Source of the DNA: Draconibacterium mangrovi
Lineage (GTDB): Bacteria; Bacteroidota; Bacteroidia; Bacteroidales; Prolixibacteraceae
DNA length: 64,000 bases
Direction: 5' to 3'
NCBI RefSeq assembly: GCF_010586825.1
Contig: NZ_JAAAGB010000003.1
Location: 186,001 to 250,000, forward strand
Shown here piece by piece: positions 14,885 through 29,240 of this stretch. The position numbers and the translations under genes were made by a program. Each line of letters opens with the position of its first letter. The stretch's first letter is position 1. The notes below the pieces were generated by a model. The model did no database searches, was not told where the DNA came from, and was given only the letters and a program-made list of their open reading frames with translations.

Positions 14885-15790
14885 ATGAAACGACTTATCT
14901 ATTTATCATTAAGCCTATTTCTGTTTTTTAGTTGCACGCAAAATTCCAACCAGCAAGCGCATTCAGAAACAGATAACTTTTCTTTTGTATTTATGACTGA
15001 TATTCATATCACGCCAGAACGAAATGCAACAGAAGGTTTTAGCCAGGCTATTGATACGATAAACAGTCTGAATCCGGATTTTGTGTTAACCGGAGGCGAC
15101 AACATAATGGATGCGCTTGGGCAGACATATGAGGTCAGCGACAGCCTTTACAAGCTATACGAAAATACGGTAGCAAAAGTGAAAGCTCCGGTTTATAACA
15201 CCATGGGAAATCATGAAGTTTTCGGACTTTACGAAAATAGCGGCGTTTCTCCGTCGCATGAAGAATACGGCAAACAGCTTTACCAAAACCGACTGGCCAA
15301 ACGATATTACTCGTTCGATTATAAAAACTGGCATTTTGTGGTTCTTGACGGAATTGGATTTACAAACGACAGACATTACTACGGACATGTTGACGAAGAA
15401 CAACTGGAGTGGCTAAAAAATGATCTGAAAACAGCAGGAGACAAACCAATAGCCGTAAGCATACATATTCCGTTGTTAAGTATAGGATCGCAGATTATGC
15501 AAGACCCTACAGAGGGGATGTCGGAGGGCTCGATTGTTACCAATGCGAACCAGGTTAGGGAGATACTCGAACAACACAATACAAAACTGGTTTTACAGGG
15601 CCATTTGCATTTCCTCGAAGATATTGAATACAATGGGATTCATTACATTACCGGGGGAGCTGTTTCTTCGCAGTGGTGGCAAGGCCAACGATTTGGCATG
15701 GAAGAAGGATTTTTAAAGATTGATGTTAAAGGAGAAAACTTTAGCTGGGAATACATCGATTATGGCTGGGATGTAAAAGAAACAAATTAA
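14885..15790 (+). CDS. Calcineurin-like metallophosphoesterase, lipoprotein
   Basis: A 301-residue protein with a lipoprotein signal (hydrophobic run then FFSC17). The metal-binding motifs are in order: MTDIHI (D-x-H), GGDNIMD, GNHE, SIHIPL and GHLH. It is therefore a two-metal phosphoesterase anchored in the periplasm or on the surface, of the purple-acid-phosphatase-like/3',5'-cyclic-nucleotide class. The substrate is unknown. A strong hairpin terminator follows, which also closes the broken yjbQ 3' half from the other side. Confidence 0.88.
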   Translation: MKRLIYLSLSLFLFFSCTQNSNQQAHSETDNFSFVFMTDIHITPERNATEGFSQAIDTINSLNPDFVLTGGDNIMDALGQTYEVSDSLYKLYENTVAKVKAPVYNTMGNHEVFGLYENSGVSPSHEEYGKQLYQNRLAKRYYSFDYKNWHFVVLDGIGFTNDRHYYGHVDEEQLEWLKNDLKTAGDKPIAVSIHIPLLSIGSQIMQDPTEGMSEGSIVTNANQVREILEQHNTKLVLQGHLHFLEDIEYNGIHYITGGAVSSQWWQGQRFGMEEGFLKIDVKGENFSWEYIDYGWDVKETN

Positions 15791-15807: not shown

Positions 15808-15845
15808 AGCAGAAAAACCGGGGAGTTCCCGGTTTTTCTGCTTTT
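15808..15845. terminator. Strong, probably bidirectional terminator
   Basis: A 15-bp perfect stem: AGCAGAAAAACCGGG at 15808-15822 pairs with CCCGGTTTTTCTGCT at 15828-15842 over a 5-base loop, followed by a T run. It lies between the phosphoesterase stop and the stop codon of the convergent yjbQ remnant, so it likely served both. Confidence 0.85.
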
Positions 15846-16004
15846 AGCTATATATCGTTAATACCAATCGTCGTGCACCTCCGTAATCACGGAATTCGCC
15901 AAAATATATTCCCTGCCAGGTGCCCAAATTTAAGCGATGGCGAGTAATGGGTATGGTTACTTCGGCACCAATAACCGACGATTTAAGGTGCGCAGGCATA
16001 TCAT
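15844..16004 (-). pseudogene. yjbQ: yjbQ, 3' half of the host gene cut by the element
   Basis: Read on the minus strand from 16002 this gives DMPAHLKSSVIGAEVT, then [19 protein letters not shown] and RDYGGARRLVLTIYS with a stop at 15844-15846. This is the C-terminal part of a YjbQ/UPF0047 (secondary thiamine-phosphate synthase-like) protein, from residue 85. It has no start codon of its own. Its 5' half is at 28,376-28,632 on the same strand. Joining both at the shared ATATCAT gives exactly 411 bases, that is 136 codons plus stop, without a frameshift. Confidence 0.92.
15998..16004. other. Left attachment core (attL)
   Basis: ATATCAT at the point where YjbQ homology stops. On the left is host yjbQ codon 86 (ATG on the minus strand); on the right begins element DNA. 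Outward TTAATA at 16017-16022 mirrors TATTAA at 28353-28358 when the ends are joined. Confidence 0.8.
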
Positions 16005-16024
16005 ATTAGTTGGAAATTAATACA

Positions 16025-16051
16025 TATATTTGTATTGGTTCAATTAATTGA
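16025..16051 (+). promoter_or_regulatory. Promoter box and palindrome of the serine recombinase gene
   Basis: TATATTTG at 16025-16032 matches the TAnnTTTG -7 consensus. A perfect 12-bp palindrome, TCAATTAATTGA, follows at 16040-16051, between the box and the ATG at 16060. The palindrome is well placed for a repressor or for autoregulation by the recombinase. Confidence 0.5.
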
Positions 16052-16059
16052 TATTGTGT

Positions 16060-17703
16060 ATGAAAGCAATTCTATTAGTCCGTGTTTCATCGGACACACA
16101 GGAATATGAGGAACAAAAAAACGATTTAATCAAAACTGCTATTGATAAGCAATACAGTGAACAAGATTTAATAATCGTAGAACACGAAGAATCTGCCATA
16201 AAATTAACAATTGACGAAAGACAAGGTATAATAAAATTAAAAAAGTCAATCGCAGAAGATAAATCAATAAATGCGGTCTTTGTATGGGAATTGTCAAGGT
16301 TAGCTCGGAATCAAACCGAAGGTCACTTATTAAAAGACTTTTTCTTCAAAAACAAAATACAATTCTACTGCACACACCCTGAAATACAACTGTTTAATGA
16401 TTCCATTACTGCTCCTTACGAAATTGGCGACATAACATTCTCGTTATTCCTACAAATGACAGAAAGTGAGATGCGAACAAAAAAAGCACGTTTTCATCGT
16501 TCAAAAATACGAAATGCTAAAACAGGTAAGTATAGTGGTGGTTTTATTAAATATGGTTACACCGTTGATGATAATGGTTATTACCAGATAAAAGATGATG
16601 AAGCTGAATTAATACGATATGTATTTAACAGGTATGAAGCAGGAATTAGTGTTTGGAAGCTGAATAAGGAAATTGTAGAGAGAGGTTTACACAATTCAAT
16701 ATCATTTGTAAATGAAACATTAAAATGTGAGGCATACACAGGTTTAAGTAACAAGTATGGAATGAACAGAGTTTATCCACAAATTATATCTGTGGAACAG
16801 TTTAATAGGGTTAAAGAGCTAAAAAAGAAGAATAACAAGAAGTTGGATAAAAGCAATGAAATCTACTTTGGTAAAGGTTTAATAAAGTGTAACCATTGTG
16901 GTGCAAAATATTTGGCAATGAAATCGTCAATTCAATATTTGTGTTACAATCGATTTGGTAGAGAACAAAAAATTAATCCAACATTAGCTTGTCGAGAATC
17001 AGCAAGTATTAATATTAATGTTTTAGATACAATTCTATTTGAAGCGAGTGTAATTGAAGAAACATACTTTGTTATGAACAATTCTAAGGATGCGATTAAA
17101 AATTTAGTCGAGCAGATAAATGTTAATAAACAAAAGATAGATAATCTTAGATTGACCATAGAAAAATCTGAAGCTAAGAAAGAACGAAATAATACCATGT
17201 ACTTTAATGGCGGTATTTCTGAAGAAAAATACTTAGCTAACGTTAAAAATGTAGATGCAGAAGTAAAAGAAGCTACTAATGCTATCGTTGCTACTACCAA
17301 TTTAAACACACAGTTGGAGAATAGAATTAACGATATTAATACTGAAAAACGTGATTTGTGGACTGAATACCGTAAATACGAAAATGGTGTTTATGCAATT
17401 GAAGATTTAAAAGAAAAGCAAAAAATTGTACAAAGGCATATTAAAGAAGTTGAAATAATTGATGAAATACCAAATCATACAAAAATCGTTATGATATATT
17501 TCCATATGAACCCAAAAGTACCATTGTTATATCGGGTACATTTCAAAAAGATTCCCCAATTGATAGAAATTTGCACTGATTTTTATGATGACGGACATAA
17601 CGGCTACAATAACGAATTTATTTCTGCATGGGGCAATAATATCTTGTGGCAAGAAGTAGATTTTAAAATTGAAAAAAGATTTGTAAGAAACAAAGCCAAA
17701 TAA
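16060..17703 (+). CDS. Large serine recombinase (integrase)
   Basis: A 547-residue recombinase. The N-terminal resolvase domain has the catalytic serine S10 in LLVRVSS, and FVWELSRLARN is the conserved helix motif. The recombinase domain (YTVDDNGYYQIKDDEAELIRYVFNRY) follows, then a zinc ribbon (CNHCGAKY ... CYNR ... ACRESA), a coiled coil around residues 345-440, and a C-terminal tail. It performs att-site integration and excision through a 2-bp staggered cut. Its start is 55 bases from the left core, as is usual for such integrases. I use the ATG at 16060; the TTG four codons earlier is less likely. Confidence 0.93.
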   Translation: MKAILLVRVSSDTQEYEEQKNDLIKTAIDKQYSEQDLIIVEHEESAIKLTIDERQGIIKLKKSIAEDKSINAVFVWELSRLARNQTEGHLLKDFFFKNKIQFYCTHPEIQLFNDSITAPYEIGDITFSLFLQMTESEMRTKKARFHRSKIRNAKTGKYSGGFIKYGYTVDDNGYYQIKDDEAELIRYVFNRYEAGISVWKLNKEIVERGLHNSISFVNETLKCEAYTGLSNKYGMNRVYPQIISVEQFNRVKELKKKNNKKLDKSNEIYFGKGLIKCNHCGAKYLAMKSSIQYLCYNRFGREQKINPTLACRESASININVLDTILFEASVIEETYFVMNNSKDAIKNLVEQINVNKQKIDNLRLTIEKSEAKKERNNTMYFNGGISEEKYLANVKNVDAEVKEATNAIVATTNLNTQLENRINDINTEKRDLWTEYRKYENGVYAIEDLKEKQKIVQRHIKEVEIIDEIPNHTKIVMIYFHMNPKVPLLYRVHFKKIPQLIEICTDFYDDGHNGYNNEFISAWGNNILWQEVDFKIEKRFVRNKAK

Positions 17704-18028
17704 GACCTTCCATTTTACACCCTGACCTAAATTTTTCTAAATAAAAATTCACTTTCCCATAAGAAGGTTGAACCCCTTTCTTCCAGATTATCAATTTTTT
17801 ATATTTTTTTTAAGACCTTCTTTTTTCCGAAACGAGTTTCAATTTTCAAAATAAAAAATTGATTTAAGCATTTATAGTAAAAACACAGACCTTCGATTTA
17901 GCAAAAACGAAACGTATAAAAGATTTACATACGCTGCACCTCGTTAATATAATGGGGGTATCCCGTGGGGGTAACCACGGGGGGGTACCGTGGTTCGTAC
18001 ATTATTTTTAACGGATAAAACAGCGATT
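17704..18028 (+). promoter_or_regulatory. Leader region with mutually exclusive G-rich hairpins
   Basis: 325 bases without a normal gene. AGACCTTC occurs three times (17703, 17813, 17887). At 17951-18000 CCCGTGG (17962-17968) can pair with CCACGGG (17975-17981), or AACCACGG (17973-17980) can pair with CCGTGGTT (17988-17995). The two hairpins share bases and exclude each other. The segment has three G runs of five or more. It leads into a 17-codon frame coupled to the next gene, so an attenuator-like switch is possible. Confidence 0.5.
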
Positions 18029-18082
18029 ATGACAAGTTTTGTAACTCTAATCCGTATTTATATGAAAAAAGGCACACTATGA
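18029..18082 (+). CDS. Possible 17-codon leader peptide
   Basis: ATG at 18029 opens a 17-codon frame (MTSFVTLIRIYMKKGTL) whose TGA overlaps the next gene's ATG as ATGA. The bases before it (TAAAACAGCGATTATGA) resemble those before the gene at 18423 (TAAAACAGCAATCATGA), which suggests the same start signal is used. It could couple translation to the upstream hairpins. Not proven. Confidence 0.35.
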   Translation: MTSFVTLIRIYMKKGTL

Positions 18083-18396
18083 ATACAATAGGAGAACTAA
18101 TAACCAACATGACGATTAATCCGCAAGAGTTTAACCACTTAAAAATATTCCTACACCGTGAAGACACTAAAATACAATCGGATTTCGGTGGAAAATTTCT
18201 GTTTGTTTCACCAAACTCATTTGGTCTGGTTAAGTTGAACGACCTTGTTGTAGAGAACAATAACATTCAGCTTTATCTGGAAGATGTTTTCACTGGTCAA
18301 TCGGACACATTTACAATTGACACTAACGATAAATCGTTTCAATTTCTGCTGATTGAATGGAATGATATTCAGGAATTAGTTTCCCGTGATTCGTAA
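18079..18396 (+). CDS. Hypothetical small protein of the element
   Basis: A 105-residue acidic cytoplasmic protein with no signal peptide or cysteines. It begins MNTIGELITNMTINPQEF and has beta-strand-like segments in the middle. I recognise no family. It is coupled by ATGA to the leader frame and precedes a second small gene by 26 bases. A job linked to the neighbouring defence cargo is conceivable but not shown. Both genes end at a strong terminator before the convergent res gene. Confidence 0.55.
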   Translation: MNTIGELITNMTINPQEFNHLKIFLHREDTKIQSDFGGKFLFVSPNSFGLVKLNDLVVENNNIQLYLEDVFTGQSDTFTIDTNDKSFQFLLIEWNDIQELVSRDS

Positions 18397-18422
18397 ATTA
18401 ATTAAATCGTAAAACAGCAATC

Positions 18423-18806
18423 ATGAGCAAATTACAAGACCGATTTCCATACTACGACCAGACATTACTTGGTTTAAACAATCAGTACATAGCCATTGGC
18501 AATGATTCATTTCTTATTAACTCACCAGCGGTACTTGCAGATCAGCATATAGTTGTAACGGGATGTTCCTATCTATTGGTCTGGTCTGAAAACGAAAAAA
18601 TGAATGTTCATCATGTAAAGCTAACAGATGTGTACCACGACAATGAAAAAGTAAACGTGCTCTTAAAAGAAATATCTACCAACCACGTTAAAAAACTGGA
18701 ACTATTTCTGGATATGGAGCATCAATCTACTTGGATTTTGATTGATGCAGGTTATATTAAAAATCAGGTTGATAGAATTCTTATAAAAGAATACTGCGGC
18801 TGTTAA
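18423..18806 (+). CDS. Hypothetical small protein of the element
   Basis: A 127-residue protein, mostly beta-strand-like, with hydrophobic-polar alternation and a C-terminal CGC. No known domain recognised. Its start signal copies that of the upstream leader frame. It shares overall size and a VKLxD-type segment with the preceding gene, but I cannot claim homology. It forms a two-gene unit with 18079-18396. Confidence 0.55.
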   Translation: MSKLQDRFPYYDQTLLGLNNQYIAIGNDSFLINSPAVLADQHIVVTGCSYLLVWSENEKMNVHHVKLTDVYHDNEKVNVLLKEISTNHVKKLELFLDMEHQSTWILIDAGYIKNQVDRILIKEYCGC

Positions 18807-18828
18807 AATAATTGCTATCCACAACAAA

Positions 18829-18862
18829 ATGAACCGCGGGTTTCACCCCCGGATCATTTTTT
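18829..18862. terminator. Rho-independent terminator between convergent units
   Basis: ATGAACCGCGGG (18829-18840) pairs with CCCCCGGATCAT (18846-18857) with two mismatches over a TTTCA loop, followed by six T. It ends the small-gene pair. It is near-symmetric and could also end the type III operon arriving from the right. Confidence 0.75.
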
Positions 18863-18890
18863 GCTTGCAATAGTTAACTGAAATATTCAT

Positions 18891-21548
18891 TTAACTTATC
18901 AATTGCCCAACTTTATTCACCACCTTGTAATCCAAATCTTCAAACTCATTGAAGTGTGCTTTCCCACATTTAATTTTTAACTGTTCATCAACTTTCAATT
19001 TTGATAAATCGACTTCTGGCGTTCCTGTATCTTTAGTTTCAGCAACAAAATACACTTTCATATCATCTTCAAACACGACTGCCCAATCAGGATTATAATT
19101 TCCAATTGGCGTAGGTATTTTAAACCAATTAGGTAATTTGAAATAAAACTTTATTTGGTCGCTTGTTTCACAATCCTTAGCAAACTTGTTTTCAACACCA
19201 GAATCCAATGGGATTAATTCATCATAAATGGTTTTAGAATTATCTGATACTTTAAACGTGTAATCATTTAAATAAATTTCAAGTTCTTGCGCCTCAAATA
19301 AAGCCATTTCGTAATCTATTCCACCAATGTTATGGTATTTTATCCCATCTATCATTAAGTGATATAAAGTACGTCTAATTGCCTGTGAAGCTAAGTCAAG
19401 GAATAGTTGTGGATTAATCAATATGTCACCTATTCTTCCAGATTTTTCTAATATCTCTAATATTGTCGAACGTGTTAGCTCTGTTCTACTTTGGATATAA
19501 CCTAATACATCTGGTATTTTCCATGCGTAACCATCATATGATTCAACTTTATCACCTGCATAATTCGTCCCCACACCTTCGTCTGTCATCGTTACTGAAA
19601 CTTTTGTAGAGCGTATGGATGGTGCTTTTATTTCTGGTAATTCTTTAACTGCATTACCAGCAGAAATAACTAAATCCTTCGTGTCGTAATCAACCCTGTA
19701 AGTGGTTTTCTTCTTTATTTTTTCCCATATCTCAAGAAATCTTGGGTCTGCCTCAAATCCTTTACGATATTTTATTTCGGTACGTTCACGTTTATTTTTG
19801 ATACGTCCTTTAAACTCAACACCACAATCTTCTTCAATTTCTTTTTGTAATGTTTTGGCAAAATCATCATACGATTCATTCGCAACCACTGTTAACCGAT
19901 TTATGTTTTGGTCGTAAATACGTTTACCATCTTGATTAACAGCTAAACGCAAACCTCGTCCAATTTCCTGACGTTTCTTCATGTCAGATTTGGTTTCGTT
20001 TAAAGTGCATATTTGAAATACATTAGGGTTATCCCATCCTTCTCGTAAAGCAGAATGTGAGAATATGAACCTCAAAGGATTGGTTATATCAAGTAGTTTT
20101 TCCTTGTCTTTCATTATTAAGCTGTATGTATCATCATCAGCTTTTGTTTCCCCCGATGTATCTTTCACTTTTCCTTTTTTGTCTTGGGAGAAGTAACCAT
20201 TATGGATTTTATCTACTGGAAATTTATTTAATTCTTTAAATGCTGGTTTGCTTACGTACTCTTGATATATTTCTTCAAACCATTCAGCAAATTTTCCCTG
20301 TATTGCATTCCCTGTCGTATCATACTGCCTGTAGTTAGCTACCTTATCAATAAAGAACAATGATAACACCTTGATTCCTTTGCCACTCAAACGCTTTTCC
20401 TTTTTCAGGTGTTCTTCAATGGTTTTTCTTATTTGAAACTTCATCACCTCATCAGTTAAACCACCTTGAATCTCCCCTTTGTAAAGCATATTACCATTGG
20501 ATAATGCAATACAATTATTAGCTGCATCTATTTCTTCAACGATGTAGCCATCAGCATAAATTTCACGTTCTTTAGATTTCTTATAAAGGTCATCACCTAC
20601 TTTTACTGTAATAGCCTTCTTTTTAACACCATTGTCTTCGTTAACGTTAATCGATACTTTAGCTGTAACTTTGGTTTTAGTTGCTGTAACAGATTCTAAT
20701 GCCACGAATGCATCATTAAACGAATTTTCTTCCAATATTGAATCTACTTCAATCTGCTTTACCAAACCTAAATCATATGCTTTTACAGGATTAAGACTAT
20801 ACACTAAATTGTAATGATTTCGGTGGGTTGCCGAATACCGTAAGGTGCATAATGGTTTTAGGTTATCAATTGCAGCCGAACGCTTTTCTGTCTCCATGTT
20901 TTGGGGTTCATCCACAATAACAATTGGATTTGTTGACTGTATAAATTCAATCGGATTTTGACCATTCAATTTATCATTTGGCTTATTAATTATGTTTTCA
21001 TCTTTAGCAAATGAATCAATATTAATCACCAGTACCTCGATGTTATTCCCCGAAGCAAATCCCCTTAGCGATGATGGATTAGCACTATTGTAAACCTGAA
21101 AATTGATTGGAATATTATCGTACAGATTTTGAAAGTGTTCATGTGTAATTTGAAGGTTTTTTAGAACGCCTTCACGTATTGCCACAGATGGTACAACAAT
21201 CACATATTTCTTAAATCCGTATTGCTTAAACAACTCGTAAATGGTACGCAAATACACATAGGTTTTACCTGTACCAGTTTCCATCTCTACAGAAAAATGC
21301 ATTCCATCTAATTTTTTGGACTGTGGAATTTCATTTTCAGACTGCACCGATTGAAGATTTTTAAGAACTTGGTCTTGTGAAAGTACCATCTTATTGCCAA
21401 CACCATTAATAAGATTAAGTACTCCAACATCCTTAGTAAAATCAAATTCAGCTATTGAATCTTCTAATGGTTGACCTTCAAACAATGAAGTTACCGATTT
21501 TATAGCTTCTGCTTGGTATTGAAGATTTGAATCAAACGTTAATTTCAT
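18891..21548 (-). CDS. Type III restriction enzyme, Res subunit
   Basis: An 885-residue DEAD-like translocase and nuclease. Walker A is GTGKT near residue 94 in VEMETGTGKTY, the DExx box is IVIVDEPQNMET, and motif VI includes KKRQEIGRGLRLAVN. The C-terminus has a PD-ExK nuclease core (PDWAVVFED ... VAETKDTG). With Mod it cleaves DNA carrying unmodified sites in opposed orientation. I start at the ATG at 21546-21548, two bases after the preceding stop; the earlier ATG at 21566 would overlap that gene. The gene is full length. Confidence 0.93.
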   Translation of the reverse strand: MKLTFDSNLQYQAEAIKSVTSLFEGQPLEDSIAEFDFTKDVGVLNLINGVGNKMVLSQDQVLKNLQSVQSENEIPQSKKLDGMHFSVEMETGTGKTYVYLRTIYELFKQYGFKKYVIVVPSVAIREGVLKNLQITHEHFQNLYDNIPINFQVYNSANPSSLRGFASGNNIEVLVINIDSFAKDENIINKPNDKLNGQNPIEFIQSTNPIVIVDEPQNMETEKRSAAIDNLKPLCTLRYSATHRNHYNLVYSLNPVKAYDLGLVKQIEVDSILEENSFNDAFVALESVTATKTKVTAKVSINVNEDNGVKKKAITVKVGDDLYKKSKEREIYADGYIVEEIDAANNCIALSNGNMLYKGEIQGGLTDEVMKFQIRKTIEEHLKKEKRLSGKGIKVLSLFFIDKVANYRQYDTTGNAIQGKFAEWFEEIYQEYVSKPAFKELNKFPVDKIHNGYFSQDKKGKVKDTSGETKADDDTYSLIMKDKEKLLDITNPLRFIFSHSALREGWDNPNVFQICTLNETKSDMKKRQEIGRGLRLAVNQDGKRIYDQNINRLTVVANESYDDFAKTLQKEIEEDCGVEFKGRIKNKRERTEIKYRKGFEADPRFLEIWEKIKKKTTYRVDYDTKDLVISAGNAVKELPEIKAPSIRSTKVSVTMTDEGVGTNYAGDKVESYDGYAWKIPDVLGYIQSRTELTRSTILEILEKSGRIGDILINPQLFLDLASQAIRRTLYHLMIDGIKYHNIGGIDYEMALFEAQELEIYLNDYTFKVSDNSKTIYDELIPLDSGVENKFAKDCETSDQIKFYFKLPNWFKIPTPIGNYNPDWAVVFEDDMKVYFVAETKDTGTPEVDLSKLKVDEQLKIKCGKAHFNEFEDLDYKVVNKVGQLIS

Positions 21549-21550
21549 AA

Positions 21551-21862
21551 TTACCTTAATTTCCAAAGTTCCTTAGATTCATTACCTTCCTTTGTGTTTA
21601 GCTGGATATTCGAAGAATTACTACAAACAAACCGAACCCTATCTTCAGTTAAATCATTATGGCTCGCAATCGCCCTTGTTGAACGCCATTCTTTTGCCTG
21701 ATTTGGCGTTGTATTATTTTTAAGCCACTTTTTCACTTTAATGGTATGACATTTATTCATGATACCTTTTTTTATCAAATCTGCAAGCCATATTATCAGA
21801 CCAGCAATTGCACCACCAACACCACCAATTATTATACCTTCAACAATAGTTTCTTTTGACAT
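21551..21862 (-). CDS. Small membrane protein inside the type III operon
   Basis: A 103-residue protein between mod and res, with two-base gaps on both sides. Residues 8-28 form a glycine-rich membrane segment (GIIIGGVGGAIAGLIIWLADL). The remainder resembles a small winged-helix domain: a helix with WLKNN, RSTRAIASHNDLTEDRVRFV like a turn-helix, then a short beta wing ending LWKLR. Such a mod-X-res order is unusual. It may be an operon regulator or a tether to the membrane. No family can be named. Confidence 0.65.
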   Translation of the reverse strand: MSKETIVEGIIIGGVGGAIAGLIIWLADLIKKGIMNKCHTIKVKKWLKNNTTPNQAKEWRSTRAIASHNDLTEDRVRFVCSNSSNIQLNTKEGNESKELWKLR

Positions 21863-21864
21863 AA

Positions 21865-23838
21865 CTAAATTGTTTTAAATTCAATATCTGCATCCTTCAT
21901 TTGCAATACTGTATTTGTTTTTAATTGGTCGTTTCCTTTAAACAAACGGTCTAATGCAATTACCTTTTGTGGCTTAATCTTCAAAATACTACTTACAATT
22001 TCTTGAGTAGCTTTTTCAAGCATTAACACTAATTCAGTATCATTTACACAGTAGAAATCATCACTATTATCAATTCGACAATTAATGTCTTTTCCACTCT
22101 TTAATAATAACTCATAGACCATGTTTTCAGTAGTAGCTTTTTCTGAAACAGGGTCAACAAACAACTTCATTTGTTCGGCCAACGCATCAGCATCATTTCC
22201 TTTAATTTGCTGCCATTGCTTAAAGTTACTTTCAGCTAATTTCAATACTTTAAAACCTAAATCCTGTTTTACTTCAAATTCTTTTTCATTAAAATTCAAT
22301 TCTGAATTTTTCTTTTTCTTCTCCTTGCTTAGACCGTCTTGGATTTTATATGATGCCCTTCGAATTCTTTCCTTTGCAACGTCTGCAATTGTTGCATAAC
22401 CGCTTTTATATGCTTCACTTTTTATATCACATTTCTCTGGTAATTGAATGCATATAAACTTCCGATTTTTACCGTCCTCACTATTTAATTGATAAACAGC
22501 ATGTGCTGTTGAGGCAGAACCCGAGAAGAAATCTAATACAATATCATTTTCATTTAAAAGAAATGGGAAAAATTGATTCAAAAACTGAATTGGTTTAGTA
22601 TTGTTAAATAATCTTTTTTTGTCAGGAAACAGAGATTTCATATCATAAGAACCTAACCTTCCGTCCAATTCTATAACACCAGATAGCTTTTCCTGATAAT
22701 CCTTTGCATAAACTTTTAATTCAATAATTTTATTTTCATCCTTTCCAAAAATCACCTTCTTTTGCTCCAACAATTCCAGCATAGTTTCTTCAGGAAATCG
22801 ATACCCCATTAATGGTTGTTTTGTAGGTTTTTTAGTTACAGGATGAACAACATCATACCTATATCCTTCCTTCCCTGGGTTATGAACACTCTGACTTCCC
22901 GTATAGATACCACCAAAATCGATATACTTATATCTATCCAAGGGAACAAGAAATTTCTTATTTTGCTTATACCATTTGGCATACTCATATTGTAATTGTT
23001 CTAAATCTTTAAATTGATTGATAAGATTTTGACCTACCTCTACAAGCAAATCTTTGATAACAGAAACATTACTTTTCCATACACTTTCTATCGAATTTTT
23101 GTCCTTTGCAAAAACATGAACATATTCGTGTTCGACTGCAATATTGGTGGGATTATTATCTGTTGCATTTTTCCAAACTATCGTTCCAATCCAATTTTCT
23201 TCTCCAAATACTTCATTTAACAACAAGCGTAAATTATGAACTTCATTATCATCAATCGAAACAAATATGACCCCATCAGTTTTAAGCAGATTTTTAGCCA
23301 TAAACAAACGAGGATACATCATATTCAACCAATTGCTATGATACTGCCCGTTTTCCTTGCTATTCTTCTTAAACATGCCATCTTTGGTCATATAGCCTTC
23401 TTCATCCTTATCACCAACACGTTTTTCATAATCAGCTTTTGTTTCAGAAAACTTGTCAGGATAAATAAACGAATCGCTTCCTGTATTATATGGTGGGTCG
23501 ATGTATATCATTTTCACCTTCCCGAAATAAGATTTTTGTAAAACTTTAAGTACTTCCAAATTTTCACCTTCTATGAACAGATTTTGCGTTTCACTGAAGT
23601 TTATGGATTCATCTTTAGCAGGTATTAGTGTTTTTGCCGAAGGTGCTTGCAAAACTTTAAATGCTTCGCTTTTACCTGCCCAATTCAGTACATAACGTTC
23701 GTTTGAGAAGTTAATATCATCACCCAATGTTGCTTTTAGTTTTTCAATGTCAATTTTCCCTTCACTAAATGCTTCTGGCAATATTTCTTTTAGTTGTTGT
23801 AACTTTATCTCCTGTGGAGTAAGGCTTTTACCGTCCAT
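21865..23838 (-). CDS. Type III DNA methyltransferase, Mod subunit
   Basis: A 657-residue beta-class adenine methyltransferase. The catalytic motif DPPYNTG is near residue 115 and the AdoMet motif I (DFFSGSAST) comes after it, as expected for the beta class. The variable target-recognition region lies between them. Mod methylates one strand of an asymmetric site and guides Res. I start at the ATG at 23836-23838 (MDGKSLTPQE), which fits the family N-terminus. An ATG at 23892 is open but would place a 29-bp palindrome inside the gene. Confidence 0.93.
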   Translation of the reverse strand: MDGKSLTPQEIKLQQLKEILPEAFSEGKIDIEKLKATLGDDINFSNERYVLNWAGKSEAFKVLQAPSAKTLIPAKDESINFSETQNLFIEGENLEVLKVLQKSYFGKVKMIYIDPPYNTGSDSFIYPDKFSETKADYEKRVGDKDEEGYMTKDGMFKKNSKENGQYHSNWLNMMYPRLFMAKNLLKTDGVIFVSIDDNEVHNLRLLLNEVFGEENWIGTIVWKNATDNNPTNIAVEHEYVHVFAKDKNSIESVWKSNVSVIKDLLVEVGQNLINQFKDLEQLQYEYAKWYKQNKKFLVPLDRYKYIDFGGIYTGSQSVHNPGKEGYRYDVVHPVTKKPTKQPLMGYRFPEETMLELLEQKKVIFGKDENKIIELKVYAKDYQEKLSGVIELDGRLGSYDMKSLFPDKKRLFNNTKPIQFLNQFFPFLLNENDIVLDFFSGSASTAHAVYQLNSEDGKNRKFICIQLPEKCDIKSEAYKSGYATIADVAKERIRRASYKIQDGLSKEKKKKNSELNFNEKEFEVKQDLGFKVLKLAESNFKQWQQIKGNDADALAEQMKLFVDPVSEKATTENMVYELLLKSGKDINCRIDNSDDFYCVNDTELVLMLEKATQEIVSSILKIKPQKVIALDRLFKGNDQLKTNTVLQMKDADIEFKTI

Positions 23839-23864
23839 GTTTTTGGTTGTTTTTAAAGGTATTT

Positions 23865-23893
23865 CATGATCGTGCGTTTCACGCACAATCATG
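23865..23893. promoter_or_regulatory. 29-bp palindrome upstream of mod
   Basis: Two 13-base arms, CATGATCGTGCGT and ACGCACAATCATG, with one mismatch and a TTC centre. It lies 27-55 bases upstream of the preferred mod start and includes the alternative ATG. The symmetry suggests an operator for a dimeric repressor; the modest loop could also form an mRNA hairpin that limits Mod. Confidence 0.65.
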
Positions 23894-23951
23894 AATGCAA
23901 TGTCGCAATTAAAAATTGATTTTTAAAATGGATTAATAGATAGGTTATCCC

Positions 23952-24521
23952 TTATAATGTTAAATAAGCATTTTCAATGGTCTTCTGCCGAATACCAATA
24001 TAACGTCTGGTTATTGCAATACTTGAATGCCCGAATATATCAGATAGCAACACCAAAGCATTTTCACTTTCGTTATTGTTTTCATAAATTCTTCTTCCAA
24101 AGGCTTTGCGTAAAGAGTGCGATGAAACCTGCAACTCTTTTGTATTAAATATTTGCTTTAACACTTCATTGATAGATTGTGTACGATATACAGTACCCTT
24201 TTGACTAACAAAGATGAAATCTTGCTCGTTAAACTTTATTCCATTTTCAGTAAGCATCAACTTCAACTTTGCATATGCATTAATCACATTATTGTTAAGT
24301 GTAATGGTTCTTTTTTTCTTAGTCTTTTTTTCCTCAACAATCAGTGTGTTATTGCTTGTTATATCACCATGCTTAACTCTTAATGTATCAGAAATCCGCA
24401 ATCCAGTATTAATACTAAATATCAAATAAAAACCAAGAACACACTTCTTAGGGTCTTTCAACAATAAATTAGCTTTGTAATTTACCTTATCAAATTCTAT
24501 GTAATCGCTTGCTTTATTCAT
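23952..24521 (-). CDS. Tyrosine recombinase, catalytic domain only
   Basis: A 189-residue phage-type integrase domain. All catalytic residues are visible: R42 (TGLRISD), lysines 66-70 in the beta-hairpin, H135-x-x-R138 (HSLRKAFG), H165 (FGHSSIAITRRY) and nucleophile Y174. The usual N-terminal core-binding domain is missing: the protein begins close to the catalytic fold. It may resolve dimers, invert a segment, or serve the inverted repeats immediately upstream. It lies in tandem with mod, 113 bases ahead of it. Confidence 0.85.
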   Translation of the reverse strand: MNKASDYIEFDKVNYKANLLLKDPKKCVLGFYLIFSINTGLRISDTLRVKHGDITSNNTLIVEEKKTKKKRTITLNNNVINAYAKLKLMLTENGIKFNEQDFIFVSQKGTVYRTQSINEVLKQIFNTKELQVSSHSLRKAFGRRIYENNNESENALVLLSDIFGHSSIAITRRYIGIRQKTIENAYLTL

Positions 24522-24541
24522 ACAGTAAATTTAGTAATATA

Positions 24542-24737
24542 TCTTCATTAATACAAGGATGGCTCATTAATGAAGAATAAATTTAATATATTATCACATG
24601 TCGCCACATAACCATCTAAATATGTGATAGTTGTGAAATAATCTTCAATAATGTTATTATTGAAGATTTATAAAATACGGTTTCACAGAATATAAATTCA
24701 ATTAAAAATGCACGTGTATCAGGTACATTTTTGTCAT
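24542..24737. repeat. Cluster of inverted repeats upstream of the tyrosine recombinase
   Basis: IR1: TCTTCATTAAT (24542-24552) and ATTAATGAAGA (24566-24576). IR2: AATCTTCAATAAT (24640-24652) and ATTATTGAAGATT (24656-24668), perfect 13-base arms with a 3-base centre. IR1 and IR2 share TCTTCAWTAAT. IR3: TATCACAT (24592-24599) and ATGTGATA (24622-24629). A fourth, weaker pair AAAAATG / CATTTTT is near 24711-24737. The 344-bp gap 24522-24865 has no gene. Recombinase sites or a replication origin are possible. Confidence 0.7.
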
Positions 24738-24865
24738 TTGAGAGCAAAAGATGTATAAATCACCGATACCTGAAGGATTTTCAGCACATTTAATGCTCCA
24801 AACACAATCTTAATTAAGAGTTATAGTACGTTTAAAAGCATATTAATGTGTATATAAATCGAATT

Positions 24866-26158
24866 TTAATTCCCCGTTTTTTTTACCTCGATTCTAAGTG
24901 CATCCAACTTTATTAATTGCTTGTTTGTTTTTCTGTAACTTGATGTGATTTGTTTTTTGATTTCATTTTGGCTTTTTACATGTGTAGCGTAATTCTGTGA
25001 AAGATTTAATCTTTCCAATTCGCCAACAAAATCATCAAACTGTATCGTCCCATTCACAATTTCATTTTTCTGAATAAACTCTTTTGCCCAGTATTTTTGT
25101 TTCTCTTTATAGTATTGAATCAAAGTTGGATGCAGGAATAGATGGTCGTTTATGGTCTCATTCCATTTTTTATAATTACTAATTATCTCTGGATTAAACT
25201 TTTCATCAAATTCCTCTGGCATATATAAATCAATATAAAGTGCCTGAGCCATATTGAAATATAAATTCTTTAAAGTAATCCTTTCGTTTCTGGTGGCTTG
25301 AACTACTAATGGTTTGGTTTTCGTTAATAGTTCTGTACTAAATTCATCAAATCGAATTGGTGTTACATTCCTTTTCCATTTTTTATCATGATTTGAGATT
25401 GTTTTTTCGAATTCAAAATAATTCTTACAATGGGTTGCAAGGATTGATGCAAGGTAGTTACTATCACACAATCTATTATAAATAATATTTTTAGCGTGTG
25501 TCTGCTTTAAAGTAAGTTCAAACCGTTCAACAGTTTCGCCTGTATAATTCAACCCATTATCTTGCCAACACTGATTTATATAACTTTTATCTGTCTTACA
25601 CTGCTGTAACTCATTGGTTTTGTTGTAAATTTTAATGTATTTATTAGACCTGATATTTCCCCATTTAATCATTCCGTCAATATCGGTACTAATACTCTTT
25701 CTTTGGACTTTACCCTTGTGTCTAACAGAGTACTTTTTGCGTCTTCGTGTTTGGATTAAATAATTATTAGTAAAATCTATCAACGTATGGGAAATGCAAT
25801 CCACAGCTATATCTAACAGGCTTATATATTGGTATTTAATATTGAATATTTTACACAGCTTATCAATGTAATTTGTAAAGTTAGATTGGTATAATATCTG
25901 GTTATTAAATTTGAAATATATTGGATGATTGTTTTTGTATGAATGGCGTGGAATGAACCGTATTTCGCCAATACTAATTCCGCTCATATAAACATCAGCT
26001 ATAAATTTATAATACCTATTGCCTTTACGGTAAATAATGAAACAGTCATTAGATATTTGTTGCTTTCTATTCAGGGTATAATTACCATCACTTGAAATAA
26101 CACCAGTGAATGTTATCTCCAAGCAATCAACAAATATTAGTTTTGTTACATTATTCAT
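24866..26158 (-). CDS. Probable replication initiation protein (Rep_trans-like)
   Basis: About 430 residues. Features fit rolling-circle initiators of the Rep_trans/phage Rep type: DCLEITFTGV near the start, SLLDIAVDCIS, IKIYNKTNEL, and VERFELTLKQT in the middle, then an alpha-helical tail. A catalytic tyrosine candidate is in YNK, but I cannot fix it by eye. The protein would nick the origin for replication or mobilisation of the excised circle. I start at the second ATG (26158, MNNVTKLIFVDC); the ATG at 26191 overlaps a palindrome. Other DNA-binding roles are not excluded. Confidence 0.6.
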   Translation of the reverse strand: MNNVTKLIFVDCLEITFTGVISSDGNYTLNRKQQISNDCFIIYRKGNRYYKFIADVYMSGISIGEIRFIPRHSYKNNHPIYFKFNNQILYQSNFTNYIDKLCKIFNIKYQYISLLDIAVDCISHTLIDFTNNYLIQTRRRKKYSVRHKGKVQRKSISTDIDGMIKWGNIRSNKYIKIYNKTNELQQCKTDKSYINQCWQDNGLNYTGETVERFELTLKQTHAKNIIYNRLCDSNYLASILATHCKNYFEFEKTISNHDKKWKRNVTPIRFDEFSTELLTKTKPLVVQATRNERITLKNLYFNMAQALYIDLYMPEEFDEKFNPEIISNYKKWNETINDHLFLHPTLIQYYKEKQKYWAKEFIQKNEIVNGTIQFDDFVGELERLNLSQNYATHVKSQNEIKKQITSSYRKTNKQLIKLDALRIEVKKTGN

Positions 26159-26182
26159 ATTTTTAAATTTATCGATTATAAA

Positions 26183-26204
26183 ACTACTCATTGGTTTGAG
26201 TAGT
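26183..26204. promoter_or_regulatory. Palindrome at the 5' end of the Rep-like gene
   Basis: ACTACTC (26183-26189) and GAGTAGT (26198-26204) are inverted arms separated by 8 bases. It covers the upstream alternative ATG of the Rep-like gene. The arrangement resembles that at mod and suggests operator control. Confidence 0.45.
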
Positions 26205-26376
26205 CACACCATCAAAACCACATTGAACCCCTTGTTATTCTTAGCATTCAGAAGATTTCGTTAAACCACTTGATTCATGGTTTACACATAGGATGCAACA
26301 AACTTTAAACTCAACACCTTTCGAACGTATCAGATACATTTTTTAATTAAAAAAAGTGTTCCCTTTTTAAACCAAC

Positions 26377-26401
26377 AATGACAGGTGTATAACCTGCCAT
26401 T
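26377..26401. other. Hairpin between rep and the element's yjbQ
   Basis: AATG-A-CAGGT pairs with ACCTG-C-CATT over a GTATA loop. It lies in the 378-base divergent gap between the Rep-like gene and the yjbQ copy, which has no other gene. It could be a double-strand origin hairpin or part of the regulatory region. Confidence 0.45.
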
Positions 26402-26536
26402 GACATATACTTTTATGTGAATTTTTATTTATTTCATTTTATTACTTTTCAATTTTGTGATGGTGTTTATACGCTTTCTCTTTTAAATTGTTACAAAATA
26501 TTTGGTACATTCAACAGAACAATAATTCAACTATAT

Positions 26537-26947
26537 ATGATAACACAATCAGAAATAAGATTAAATAGCTATTCTCGTGGTTTTCATTTAATAACTCACG
26601 TAATCGAACAAAAACTACCAGACTTACCCAAAAATGGATTAGTTCATTTGCTATTAAAACATACATCGGCTGGATTAACTTTAAATGAAAATGCCGACCC
26701 TTCAGTACGGTATGATTTTGAAAACTTCATCAATAAACTCATACCAGAGAACCATCCAGTGTACACTCATGTACTTGAAGGTGCTGATGATTTTCCTGCG
26801 CACGTAAAGAGTTCTCTATTTGGTGTAGAACTAACTATTCCTATCACTAATCACCGTTTGAATTTGGGTACTTGGCAGGGGATATACTTATGTGAATTTC
26901 GCAATCATGGGGGTAGTAGGAAGATTGTTCTAACTGTTCTTAGTTAG
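26537..26947 (+). CDS. yjbQ: Complete YjbQ-family protein carried by the element
   Basis: A 136-residue YjbQ/UPF0047 protein, the same length as the rebuilt host protein. It keeps the family signatures KHTSAGLTLNENADPSVR (41-58), HVLEGADD (78-85), AHVKSS (88-93) and [10 protein letters not shown]. The E. coli protein has weak thiamine-phosphate synthase activity; the physiological role is unsettled. The frame is open 40 codons upstream, but those residues are unlike the family, so I use the ATG at 26537. In place of the host's GATGATATG (codons 84-86) it has GATGATTTT, which destroys the 7-bp core. It probably replaces the gene that the element breaks. Confidence 0.9.
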   Translation: MITQSEIRLNSYSRGFHLITHVIEQKLPDLPKNGLVHLLLKHTSAGLTLNENADPSVRYDFENFINKLIPENHPVYTHVLEGADDFPAHVKSSLFGVELTIPITNHRLNLGTWQGIYLCEFRNHGGSRKIVLTVLS

Positions 26948-27078
26948 TGCCAATTTGATGGCTTCCAAATTTTTAAATGTTTTTCTAAAAGGTGCACCTT
27001 GAACAACTTTTTGAAACAAAATCCAATGTGAACCATTACTGTTGGTCTATTTTGATAATTTTATAAAAAACATATTGT

Positions 27079-27366
27079 ATGGAATTTGAATATGGATTTG
27101 AACACTTAAAAAAAGATTTTGAGAGAAGATTTAAAAATAAATTTCTTTCGTGCGAATTTAGTATTGGAGACGATGCTCTATATGGCGAAATAAAAGAATT
27201 GATTTGGTCGAACCGAGAGAAGGACTCAAACGTCTTTGTGTTAGATATTAAAATAAACCGTGATGAATTTGATACAGCAAAAGTAATGGGAATTAAACAT
27301 TTTATACTGTATTATCTTGAAGAATGCGAAAGAAACTTTCAGGAAATCTTTATTTCGATGAAATAG
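27079..27366 (+). CDS. Hypothetical small protein of the element
   Basis: A 95-residue acidic, helical protein, rich in Phe and Glu (FEHLKKDFERRFKNKF), without a signal peptide. No family recognised. It stands alone, 131 bases after yjbQ and 206 bases before the next gene. It could be cargo or a remnant. Confidence 0.45.
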   Translation: MEFEYGFEHLKKDFERRFKNKFLSCEFSIGDDALYGEIKELIWSNREKDSNVFVLDIKINRDEFDTAKVMGIKHFILYYLEECERNFQEIFISMK

Positions 27367-27572
27367 GAAATCCGAAAATAACTTTACTCAGGTATTTTGG
27401 AATGAAAAACATATTTGCTAAAACTTGCATTATCAATCAAGCTGTGAAACTTTTTGAGCCTATGAAGTCGTTGAAATTCCATTAACTTATCCATTTTAGA
27501 TTGCAAAATCCTCTTAGTAAATCCAATATTAATTATATTAGCATGCAGAGATATAAATTGTCCTGAAAAAGT

Positions 27573-28034
27573 ATGAAAATTCTGAATGACGGTATCTATT
27601 TTAAGCAGAATGACCTCAAGGAGGTAGGGTATTATACAACCGATGATGATGGAGATTTAATACATCACGAGTACAAAAAACCTACATTATGGCAACGCAA
27701 AATGTATTATGTTAGACATGGTTGTGAGATGAACTTGAATACAAAGTCAACATCGTATTTCTATTTTAGACCTGAGCAAAATAAAGTCCATTCTCAATTA
27801 GTAACAGGCGATGCGGTTTCCACGGCTAAATCGCTGAAAAAAAATGGAGTTGTAGGACAGTCTTCCATTTACAGTACACATGAGAATACTGTTAATTTTG
27901 AAAAGAATGGAATATTATATTATTTAACATTCTCTGAGGATGGACTGTCTGTCAAAGTTGAGGCAAGTAGCAAAGCAGATAACAAACATTTTAAAACAGA
28001 AACGTATAGTTATCTCGACTGGTATAATATTTAA
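27573..28034 (+). CDS. Hypothetical protein of the element
   Basis: A 153-residue protein with a beta-rich pattern (YYTTDDDGDLIHHEYKKPTLW and SYFYFRPEQNKVHSQ). No signal peptide and no recognised domain. It lies at the right end of the element, a typical spot for cargo such as toxins, antitoxins or immunity proteins, but nothing in the sequence shows such a role. Confidence 0.5.
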   Translation: MKILNDGIYFKQNDLKEVGYYTTDDDGDLIHHEYKKPTLWQRKMYYVRHGCEMNLNTKSTSYFYFRPEQNKVHSQLVTGDAVSTAKSLKKNGVVGQSSIYSTHENTVNFEKNGILYYLTFSEDGLSVKVEASSKADNKHFKTETYSYLDWYNI

Positions 28035-28092
28035 ATTAAAATCTCTCCCAAACAATGTTCTTTCTTAATTTATATAGTCTTCCATACAATAA

Positions 28093-28119
28093 GGTTCAAC
28101 CTATAAATTAAGTTGAACC
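28093..28119. repeat. GGTTCAAC inverted repeat near the right end
   Basis: GGTTCAAC (28093-28100) and GTTGAACC (28112-28119) form 8-base perfect arms over an 11-base spacer. TTGAACC also occurs at 17768, near the left end of the element. It could be a terminator stem for the preceding gene or a recombinase accessory site. Confidence 0.5.
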
Positions 28120-28151
28120 AAAATCACTATGTATTAAAATAGATTAGCTAC

Positions 28152-28310
28152 GATTTTCCTGCGAACGTAAAGAGTTCTCTATTTGGTGTAGAACTAACCA
28201 TTCCTATCACTAATCACCGTTTGAATTTGGGTACTTGGCAAGGAATTTACTTATACGAATTCAGAAATCATGGTGGCAGTAGAAATATTATTGTAAGTAT
28301 AATTAACTGA
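28152..28310 (+). pseudogene. yjbQ: yjbQ 3' fragment in reverse orientation to the host gene
   Basis: Translates as [35 protein letters not shown] and [15 protein letters not shown] then TGA. It is the C-terminal part from residue 85, starting at the same codon as the break in the host gene, but on the plus strand. The first 89 bases differ from the complete element copy at only two positions; the remaining 70 diverge strongly. There is no start codon or N-terminal half next to it. Confidence 0.85.
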
Positions 28311-28632
28311 TTAACTGATTTTTGAGTTGTTTGTTCATCAATGTGCAATATGTATTAAAATATTGTGTAAATGATATATCATCAGCTCCCTCGTAGGTAT
28401 GCACGTAAACCGGATCGTTCTCGGGGATCATTTTATTGATAAAATTCTCAAAATCGGTGCGCACAGTCGGGTCGGCGTTTTCGTTCAACGTAATACCGGC
28501 CGATGTATGTTTAACCAGTATATGCAGCAAACCTTTCTCGGGCAGGTCCGGTAATTGCTCTTCAATTAATCGGGTAATTAAATGGTATCCGCGTCGGAAT
28601 GCAGGAAGTGTTATTTCTTTCTGTTCAATCAT
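28303..28632 (-). pseudogene. yjbQ: yjbQ, 5' half of the host gene with an element-derived tail
   Basis: The first 85 codons (28632 to 28378) encode a normal YjbQ N-terminus, with KHTSAGITLNENADPTVR and TYEGADD. After the core the frame enters the element and adds 24 unrelated residues before its stop at 28303, giving a 109-residue hybrid. It lacks the C-terminal half with GTWQ, so it is probably inactive. The matching half is at 15,844. Confidence 0.92.
28376..28382. other. Right attachment core (attR)
   Basis: ATATCAT at the right break in host yjbQ, within a perfect 12-bp palindrome ATGATATATCAT (28371-28382). Bases right of it encode YjbQ residues 84 and earlier; bases left of it belong to the element. 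Confidence 0.8.
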
Positions 28633-28820: not shown

Positions 28821-29240
28821 ATGAACGCAACTCTACTCTTTGCTGGACTGGCCATTGGCATTTTACTATTATCGGTGTTGGTAATTATCCTGATCAAACA
28901 AAATAAAGCAGGAATGTACAGCGCGAATAATCAGTTGGCTTCGAAAGCAATGGGCCGGGGAATTGCCATTGGTTACGCTATTGGAATGGGGCCCGGAATT
29001 GCACTGGGGGTTGCGTTGGATAATATAGGACTTGGTATTGCGCTGGGCGCAGGAATTGGAATATCGATTGGGGTGGCACTTGGCGAGAGTTTTAAGAAGA
29101 AAGAACTGGCCAAAATAAATCAGAAAATTGACAGACAAACAATAGCTGAACAAAATGCAATGCCAAAGATTGTGATACTTTTACTCGCTTTATTTGTATT
29201 TCTATTACTGGCTTTGTATTTCTTTTTAAAAATGAATTAA
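28821..29240 (+). CDS. Small glycine-zipper membrane protein
   Basis: A 139-residue protein with membrane segments near residues 5-25 and 115-137, and between them a glycine-zipper region (GRGIAIGYAIGMGPGIALGVAL and GIALGAGIGISIGVALGESF). Such regions pack tightly in membranes and occur in proteins of unknown function. It lies 13 bases before yccF and is probably co-transcribed with it. Confidence 0.6.
   Translation: MNATLLFAGLAIGILLLSVLVIILIKQNKAGMYSANNQLASKAMGRGIAIGYAIGMGPGIALGVALDNIGLGIALGAGIGISIGVALGESFKKKELAKINQKIDRQTIAEQNAMPKIVILLLALFVFLLLALYFFLKMN

Follow-up and report, generated by a model that had tools for sequence, protein, structure and literature searches.

The window analyzed here is a 64,000-nucleotide (nt) stretch of the Draconibacterium mangrovi genome (contig NZ_JAAAGB010000003.1, positions 186,001 to 250,000), and all coordinates below are window positions unless a locus is named. 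The gene yjbQ is broken at codon 85/86 by a 12,378-bp element (15998 to 28375) that encodes a large serine recombinase and carries a second, complete yjbQ, called the spare below. The host 5′ half (28376 to 28632, minus strand) starts with the ATG at 28632 and comprises codons 1 to 85 plus the crossover AT (257 nt, ending in GATGATAT); it reads through into element sequence as a truncated frame of 109 amino acids (aa). Its score against TIGR00149 (1.6e-16, 60.2 bits) lies under the family cutoff of 67.75, as would be expected of half a gene. The host 3′ half, which matches PF01894, runs from the AT of codon 86 to the stop (15844 to 15999, minus strand); past the AT, 154 nt (15997 to 15844) resume with GCCTGCGCAC, and 257 + 154 gives 411 nt, or 136 codons plus stop. 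A shared 7-bp block, ATATCAT, lies at 15998 to 16004 and at 28376 to 28382. A first-pass annotation of this DNA had given the coordinates of both halves, the ATATCAT at each end, and the sum of 411 nt, all of which we confirmed in the sequence; it overlooked the spare and a displaced 3′ half described below. The window genome holds five family matches, one of them a distant paralogue encoded on another contig. GC content per kb is 0.29 to 0.34 in the island versus mostly 0.40 to 0.47 over the first 15 kb of the window. The host flanks encode a metallophosphoesterase (14885 to 15790, plus strand; profile match and neighbor comparison) and a glycine-zipper membrane protein, named by eye (28821 to 29240, plus strand; neighbor comparison).

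The recombinase (547 aa; 16060 to 17703, plus strand) matches the Resolvase (PF00239, 1.1e-13) and Recombinase (PF07508, 4.1e-5) domains, with a zinc ribbon match of 0.0025 that is below the cutoff. Its ATG at 16060 lies 60 bp from the AT, and a possible TTG start is found upstream at 16048. Residues R8, S10, R80, and R83 are invariant in 47 aligned sequences (the window protein and 46 relatives at 41 to 65% identity), and the family profile matches the A118 integrase (4kis) at 9.3e-13.

An empty site is present in the closest relative, G002 (locus L037), where an intact 411-nt yjbQ lies between the same phosphoesterase and glycine-zipper genes, as the first-pass annotation had predicted. The joined window flanks are identical to L037 at 744 of 759 bases, and the sole gap is the AT omitted from the join; with the AT counted once, the joined flanks are gap-free, showing that the island was inserted without target duplication. 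The window 5′ and 3′ halves are 96.8% and 95.9% identical, respectively, to the L037 gene. The recombinase domains, the precise split, and the empty site together bear out the view that this is a site-specific serine-recombinase insertion.

We surveyed 36 genomes of the same genus besides that of the window and found a family match in 31. Among 34 stretches examined from these genomes and the window genome, 30, plus the window, hold an orthologous yjbQ or its halves, while L031, L040, L057, and L058 lack an orthologous yjbQ; the orthologue of G020 lies in the 3.3-kb L012, giving 32 loci in total. At seven of the 32, yjbQ is split or accompanied by a displaced half at the same codon, which supports the earlier proposal that it is an attachment gene. 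Three of these seven have a split gene and a spare (the window, L025, and L026), three have an intact yjbQ and a displaced 3′ half (L027, L028, and L030), and L029 has an intact yjbQ and a degenerate displaced 5′ half. The remaining 25 show no second orthologous piece in the stretches examined, some of which are short.

Attachment sites and the exchange point

Comparison with the L025 and L026 elements narrowed the exchange to the dinucleotide AT (15998 to 15999 and 28376 to 28377), which forms the first two bases of codon 86 in the host target GAT-GAT-ATG-CC. The 7-bp block, previously taken as the core, is larger than the exchanged region. Read in the direction of the gene, all four split or displaced 5′ halves (the window, L025, L026, and L029) retain GATGATAT and then diverge, and the six chromosomal 3′ halves (the window, L025 to L028, and L030) restart at ATGCC. 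At L025, both sides share only AT before GCC, so that the exchange is confined to AT, provided that the site has not mutated since.

The element site (attP) is symmetric, reading TGTATTAA-N17-AT-N17-TTAATACA and centered on the exchanged AT. The half site TGTATTAA-N17-AT is exact at six of six junctions (both ends of the window, L025, and L026 elements); a motif search placed the recombinase-side copy of the window at 15998 to 16024 (minus strand), joined to the 3′ half, and the other at 28351 to 28377 (plus strand), joined to the 5′ half. A third site of this type, TGTATTAA-N17-TT (28130 to 28156, plus strand; same search), overlaps the start of the displaced 3′ half. Compared with its inverted partner, the 25-nt attP arm is identical at 15, 16, and 17 of 25 positions in the three elements (P of about 0.006, 0.002, and 0.0006), against a mean of 8.4 for random arms. 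The pseudo-symmetric attP of about 50 bp and the short exchanged core are those of a large serine recombinase element. The exact half site occurs four times in the 64-kb window (0.33 expected), twice at the junctions, and 28 times across the 913 kb examined, nine times at yjbQ junctions. Half site plus NCC is unspecific on its own, with matches in 31 of 37 genus genomes. Degraded versions are present in L027 and L030, and no half site is visible at the L029 locus.

The consensus of the Bacteroidota −7 box is TAnnTTTG. A sequence resembling this box, TATATTTG, is found at 16025 to 16032, beside the attP arm and 27 bp before the recombinase ATG; given that it adjoins the arm, integration may alter the recombinase promoter.

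According to excerpts of PMC3556126, the A118 integrase exchanges DNA between the two base pairs at the center of the site; these have to match, they are the sole determinant of orientation, and a symmetric core reacts in both orientations. The AT core here is palindromic, and the element is accordingly found in both orientations: at L026 it is inverted relative to the window and L025, with its recombinase beside the 5′ half. Excerpts of PMC3783163 describe A118 attP as having 25-bp half sites with a zinc-domain motif at positions 16 to 24; in the window-type half sites, the motif occupies positions 18 to 25. A look by eye at the site for the shifted zinc-domain motif expected in attB gave nothing convincing. 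As shown by comparison, exchange between attP and the AT of codon 86 splits yjbQ with no base lost or gained.

Could the split instead reflect a chance insertion or an assembly error, with the yjbQ copies being unrelated paralogues? The window genome is in 27 contigs, which leaves some room for such an error. Yet the same insertion base pair was used in several species, two of them represented by single-contig genomes (G034 and G031), and together with the symmetric attP and the exact empty site this already refutes the idea, whose probability we put close to nil.

The spare yjbQ and its codon 86

The spare (26537 to 26947, plus strand) is a complete 136-codon yjbQ with its own start (PF01894, 2.5e-37; TIGR00149, 2.6e-37). 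The elements at L025 (7,821 bp by coordinates) and L026 (about 13.4 kb) follow the plan of the window element: the recombinase start lies at one junction and a full spare yjbQ at the opposite end, on the same strand. The spare stop is 65 bp from the AT in L025 and 53 bp from it in L026; the two spares correspond to P0139 (uncultured Draconibacterium) and P0144 (Maribellus comscasis). The first-pass annotation held that the cell's own YjbQ is inactivated, which stands for the chromosomal copy and fails for the cell overall: since the island supplies a complete, conserved YjbQ, its gene content suggests that YjbQ activity is probably retained. A distant UPF0047 paralogue of the same cell (38% identity in the aligned part) could also cover some of the function. 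We infer that the spare keeps the host viable or fit. Thiamine synthesis was considered as a reason to keep it and set aside; the window genome has no ThiC match and a ThiE-family match of only 21.2 bits (cutoff, 27), so YjbQ is unlikely to serve complete thiamine synthesis there.

In their 5′ halves, the three spares share 73 to 80% nt identity with one another and at most 68.3% with any host gene; in their 3′ halves, they share 75.5 to 83.0% among themselves. Nonsynonymous and synonymous divergence (dN/dS) of the spare pairs is 0.09/1.5, 0.11/1.1, and 0.11/2.4, and a dN of about 0.1 with a dS of 1.1 to 2.4 argues for purifying selection on the protein. In a tree of 181 sequences (120 spare matches, 31 genus genes, and 30 others), the spares fall in a clade of 79 with a support of 0.94, a size that depends on the cut because the 120 proteins are the best listed of 7,385 matches. 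When the spare was searched against 393 genomes of the order, with at most ten candidates scored per genome, the window gene stood alone on top (1.4e-85), followed by a rebuilt gene of G161 (2.5e-73) and a Met-bearing gene of G794 (4.8e-73). The spare alignment had no match among viral contigs, and the 51 plasmid records with a match were all below 60% identity. Comparison of these sequences shows the spare as a separate, element-borne lineage, so that integration breaks the host copy and delivers another at once. PHROG family 37337 (84 positions, unknown function) matches the spare (26540 to 26947) over residues 57 to 133, hinting that some phages carry the yjbQ 3′ part.

The spares differ from host genes at the crossover codon. 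Codon 86 is ATG in the host gene and TTT (Phe) in the window spare, and across the three spares read as DNA it has changed from ATG to TTT or ATT. Met is encoded in 28 of 28 nonspare genus genes, in the gene of G020, and in 27 of 30 others, the exceptions being the rebuilt gene of G161 (Ile), G100 (Leu), and the distant paralogue of the window genome. Within the spare clade (n = 79), the residue is Ile in 36, Phe in 24, Leu in 10, and Met in 9; among the non-clade sequences kept, it is Met in 86 of 98. Of 48 columns conserved at 95% or more in 54 chromosomal genes (53 with Met at codon 86; G019 is included twice, as O_L084 and G_L044), only codon 86 is lost in the spare clade. The last residue comes next, kept in 59 of 79, and each of the 46 others is at least 97% conserved there. 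Four rows were left out of this count: the distant paralogue O_L001 and three rebuilt genes, namely O_L062 (G161, Ile), G_L027 (Met), and G_L028 (Met); omitting O_L062 favors the view that the codon was recoded, while omitting G_L027 and G_L028 does not. Counting all residues, codon 86 changed 17 times in the clade, and its unconserved neighbors 83 and 90 changed 15 and 16 times.

The second yjbQ might also be a passenger of an ordinary island, caught once by imprecise excision and kept for a metabolic effect, with codon 86 drifting under relaxed constraint. Gene capture by mobile elements is common, and the replacements at codon 86 (Ile, Phe, and Leu) are conservative. Met is also not found throughout the wider family: it is missing from 12 of 98 sequences outside the spare clade, and the solved homologue 1vmf shows a different alignment at this position. 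Against this explanation, the spare sits in all three elements at the end opposite the recombinase while other cargo varies. Nor is there general relaxation, since 46 of 48 conserved columns remain at 97% or more in the spare clade, and only codon 86 and, more weakly, the last residue have changed. We consider this explanation unlikely, although it deserves to be kept in mind.

Nested unit and rebuilt genes

The displaced 3′ half in the window (28152 to 28310, plus strand) is of the spare type, starts at the crossover, and ends with a stop 65 bp from the AT at 28376. With the matching part of the full spare it forms a 154-nt direct repeat (87% identical). This repeat and the similarity of the tails delimit a nested unit of 1,363 bp (26789 to 28151, plus strand) from which the spare received its current 3′ half, the old one being displaced; before this event, the window spare also ended 65 bp from attP. 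The nested-unit joint has TT in place of AT. Family searches assigned no family to the two open reading frames (ORFs) of the unit, which encode 95 aa (27079 to 27366, plus strand) and 153 aa (27573 to 28034, plus strand).

Chromosomal yjbQ genes have been rebuilt as well. At L028, compared with its sister L033, the 5′ half is 99.6% identical, the displaced 3′ half 100%, and the new 3′ half 81.6%; the insert is 376 bp, the new sequence starts directly after the core, and TGTATTAA-N17-AT stands in front of the displaced half. At L105 (G161:C4, 6790 to 10281), in another family of the order, yjbQ was rebuilt as well; its new 3′ half is of the spare type, and 3,086 bp have displaced the old one. 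The protein is 86 to 92% identical to the spares in its 3′ half and 59 to 61% in its 5′ half. The tails behind the new 3′ halves are alike in the window, L027, and L028. Homologous recombination was considered as the origin of the rebuilt L028 and L105 genes and judged unlikely because the switch from host-type to element-type sequence falls at the core. No recombinase gene was seen in the rebuilt-gene units (inserts of 376 bp to 3.1 kb), and G036, the genome of L028, has no relative of the window recombinase at 1e-8. These units may move in trans, or they may be leftovers of larger elements.

Several inserts carry genes that we named by eye. The L105 insert, which has the same attP half site, contains ArsR-, MerT-, and mercuric-reductase-like genes and resembles a mercury resistance unit. 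The L027 insert (G024:C5, 9085 to 11366) contains a Fur-like regulator and a peroxiredoxin-like gene, and those at the yjbQ core of L029 (9803 to 14896) and L030 (9578 to 13138), which come from two species, consist mainly of one huge PAS/histidine-kinase-like gene (1697 and 1186 aa, respectively). At L101 (G043:C20, 2588 to 7003), a distant YjbQ paralogue of 141 aa is preceded by three copies of its own 5′ end, broken at about codon 49 to 50 with similar arm sequences after the break and spaced by 940, 1295, and 1755 bp; the intervals hold small gene pairs, among them one of the nucleotidyltransferase/HEPN-like kind, and an ArsR-like gene. This locus looks like the product of serial insertions that each brought in a fresh 5′ end, here in a different member of the family and at a different site.

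Loci of the rebuilt kind raise the possibility that the window element is a classical target-rebuilding element carrying a partial gene, the full spare having arisen by stacking and deletion of such insertions. An intact gene with a displaced half is indeed seen at L028, L027, L030, and L105, and a nested event of this sort hit the window spare itself. By contrast, the host gene is unrestored at the three split loci, where the spare is complete, stands apart from it, and has a start of its own; neither window junction restores the host gene with an element fragment, which is seen only for the nested unit, L027, L028, and L105. We therefore judge this origin improbable.

Predicted cycle, cargo, and relation to known systems

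We consider it likely that this serine-integrase element of the window breaks its target gene and brings with it a full replacement, the attachment core of which has been recoded. Integration and the spare are strongly supported; that recoding gives self-immunity is what we infer. In the predicted cycle, the element would form a circle by means of its own large serine recombinase, and recombination of attP with yjbQ at the AT would cost the cell its host copy, in place of which the spare would be expressed. The circle would place the spare just upstream of attP and the recombinase gene, so that a full-strength attB within the spare would invite deletion or inversion of the element. The change at codon 86 would remove the AT itself (Phe and Leu) or the following base (Ile) at the price of a conservative substitution, and a changed crossover codon would stop the recombinase from attacking the spare and thereby avoid self-destruction. 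The rest of the element is exchangeable cargo, here type III restriction-modification.

Several points weigh against this interpretation. Excision, the circle, and recombination are predicted steps, and an intact recombinase is found only in the window, those of L025 and L026 being truncated. The Ile codons (36 of 79) retain the AT, so that immunity there would rest on the next base and not on the crossover dinucleotide, and the displaced half at 28152 means that a TT-cored spare once recombined after all; the recoding-immunity step is hardest to reconcile with these Ile variants and with the nested event at a TT core. By parsimony, Met and non-Met interchanged only five times in the clade, with an ambiguous root. 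The 3′ half of the spares is less set apart than the 5′ half, the rebuilt L028 gene being 78.9% identical to the window spare versus 75.5% for the L025 spare. Finally, metagenomic members of the spare clade are proteins without context, and only three of them share an exact contig size with a close recombinase relative.

The cargo of the three elements differs, except for a transposon pair common to L025 and L026. In the window, a type III restriction endonuclease subunit (Res; 18891 to 21548, minus strand; PF19778, 1.7e-34; PADLOC REase_III, 1038.7 bits) and a type III DNA methyltransferase (Mod; 21865 to 23892, minus strand; PF01555, 1.2e-29; PADLOC MTase_III, 592.6 bits) are adjacent, with a 103-aa ORF between them, and constitute a type III restriction-modification system. 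The island also encodes a short tyrosine recombinase of 189 aa with only the catalytic domain (23952 to 24521, minus strand; PF00589, 1.1e-22) and a possible rolling-circle replication protein (24866 to 26191, minus strand; PF05144, 19.1 bits, below the cutoff of 21.7). Pfam detected no relaxase or conjugation genes among 11 island ORFs examined, only the subthreshold Rep-like match, and PHROGs detected no phage structural genes among nine island ORFs other than Res and Mod, only integrase/invertase families and one YjbQ-like family. The L026 element carries a type IIG-like restriction-methylation protein, an HKD/SNF2 helicase, and a PDC-S42 protein, and the L025 element carries an AAA ATPase, a WYL protein, and others; cargo is thus clearly defensive in two of the three elements (the window, with its type III system, and L026).

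The L025 recombinase matches that of the window over only its first 81 residues (83% identical) and the L026 recombinase over its first 46 (53%); in both, the truncated gene is followed by a transposase pair, which we take to be IS21-like. The larger protein of the L025 pair has rve and Mu-type domains, and the L026 pair is alike by eye. These near-identical istA/istB-type pairs (assigned by eye; L025, 13464 to 15763; L026, 13978 to 16277) lie in two different species.

Among 8,000 scored candidates for relatives of the window recombinase, 153 proteins passed 1e-10, many of them from short contigs. Within the 37 genus genomes, the other matches were 31% (G004), 30% (G034), and 26% (elsewhere in the window genome) identical, and none of the three has yjbQ nearby. 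We found one further match (27%) in 295 genomes of the order and only the window's own at 1e-60 in 395 genomes of the phylum. The single sequence had no match in GTDB genome contigs or in viral contigs; the family alignment retrieved three distant relatives from each (31 to 33% and 32 to 38% identical, respectively), and these six have no yjbQ in the stretches examined. All 66 phage records with a match were below 60% identity, and none covered 80%. Recombinase/spare pairs sharing a longest-contig size numbered 3 among 47 close relatives (0.40 expected) and 4 among 72 distant ones (0.60 expected); because distant relatives also exceed chance, we give weight only to two long contigs (469,481 and 31,952 bp) with matching source tags. 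Source tags also agree for the third of the close pairs, but only at the two long sizes is a chance match negligible.

A118-type integrases share with the window element the Resolvase and recombinase domains, the zinc-ribbon match of the window protein being weak, and A118 also enters a protein-coding gene, comK. According to excerpts of PMC3556126 and PMC3783163, their attP is likewise about 50 bp long, each of its 25-bp half sites has a distal motif, and a central dinucleotide is exchanged. The window family differs in its palindromic core, with both orientations occurring naturally, and in carrying a whole copy of its target. Excerpts of PMC12884075, PMC4383910, and PMC4482086 indicate that islands often rebuild the gene that they enter. 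Those of PMC4482086 describe dusA-associated islands, which resemble the window element in having one protein-coding target, mosaic cargo, and preserved gene function, but replace only the 5′ end of dusA, whereas the window element carries a complete, separate gene and leaves the host copy broken. Closer to the dusA kind are the rebuilt-gene loci L027, L028, and L105. Islands in tRNA and tmRNA genes (Islander) also have a fixed entry point and a displaced fragment that marks the end, but they use tyrosine integrases and carry a fragment of an RNA gene; excerpts of PMC4383910 describe no complete copy or recoded core. In the literature on yjbQ and integrases, PMC3091646 mentions yjbQ, in its excerpts, only for thiamine metabolism. 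Searches on recombinases with functional, replacement, intact, or full-length copies returned no such element in the titles or abstract openings listed, subscription journals lying mostly outside their reach. The window element is of a known kind, with a trait that we did not find described in the literature searched.

Synthetic cleave-and-rescue drives also break a target and supply a recoded copy immune to the breaker; they are made in the laboratory with a nuclease, whereas this is a natural integrase element with no known drive. With somewhat less than even confidence, we extend our interpretation to a natural "break and rescue" element with a selected immune copy, in which the small recombinase-less units, sharing its half site and having a spare-type 3′ half, would be satellites moved in trans and yjbQ would be a landing pad for defense and resistance cargo across families of the order.

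Whereas islands in genes are known to repair their target, this element leaves it broken and brings a whole replacement along. The work also provides a Bacteroidota serine integrase for which the target, the element site, and a palindromic core have been mapped, and a spare yjbQ with a non-Met codon 86 may serve as a marker for such elements in metagenomes. If recoding is protection, the element would be a natural counterpart of engineered rescue designs and would offer a testable explanation for the ability of integrases to use conserved genes as their sites.

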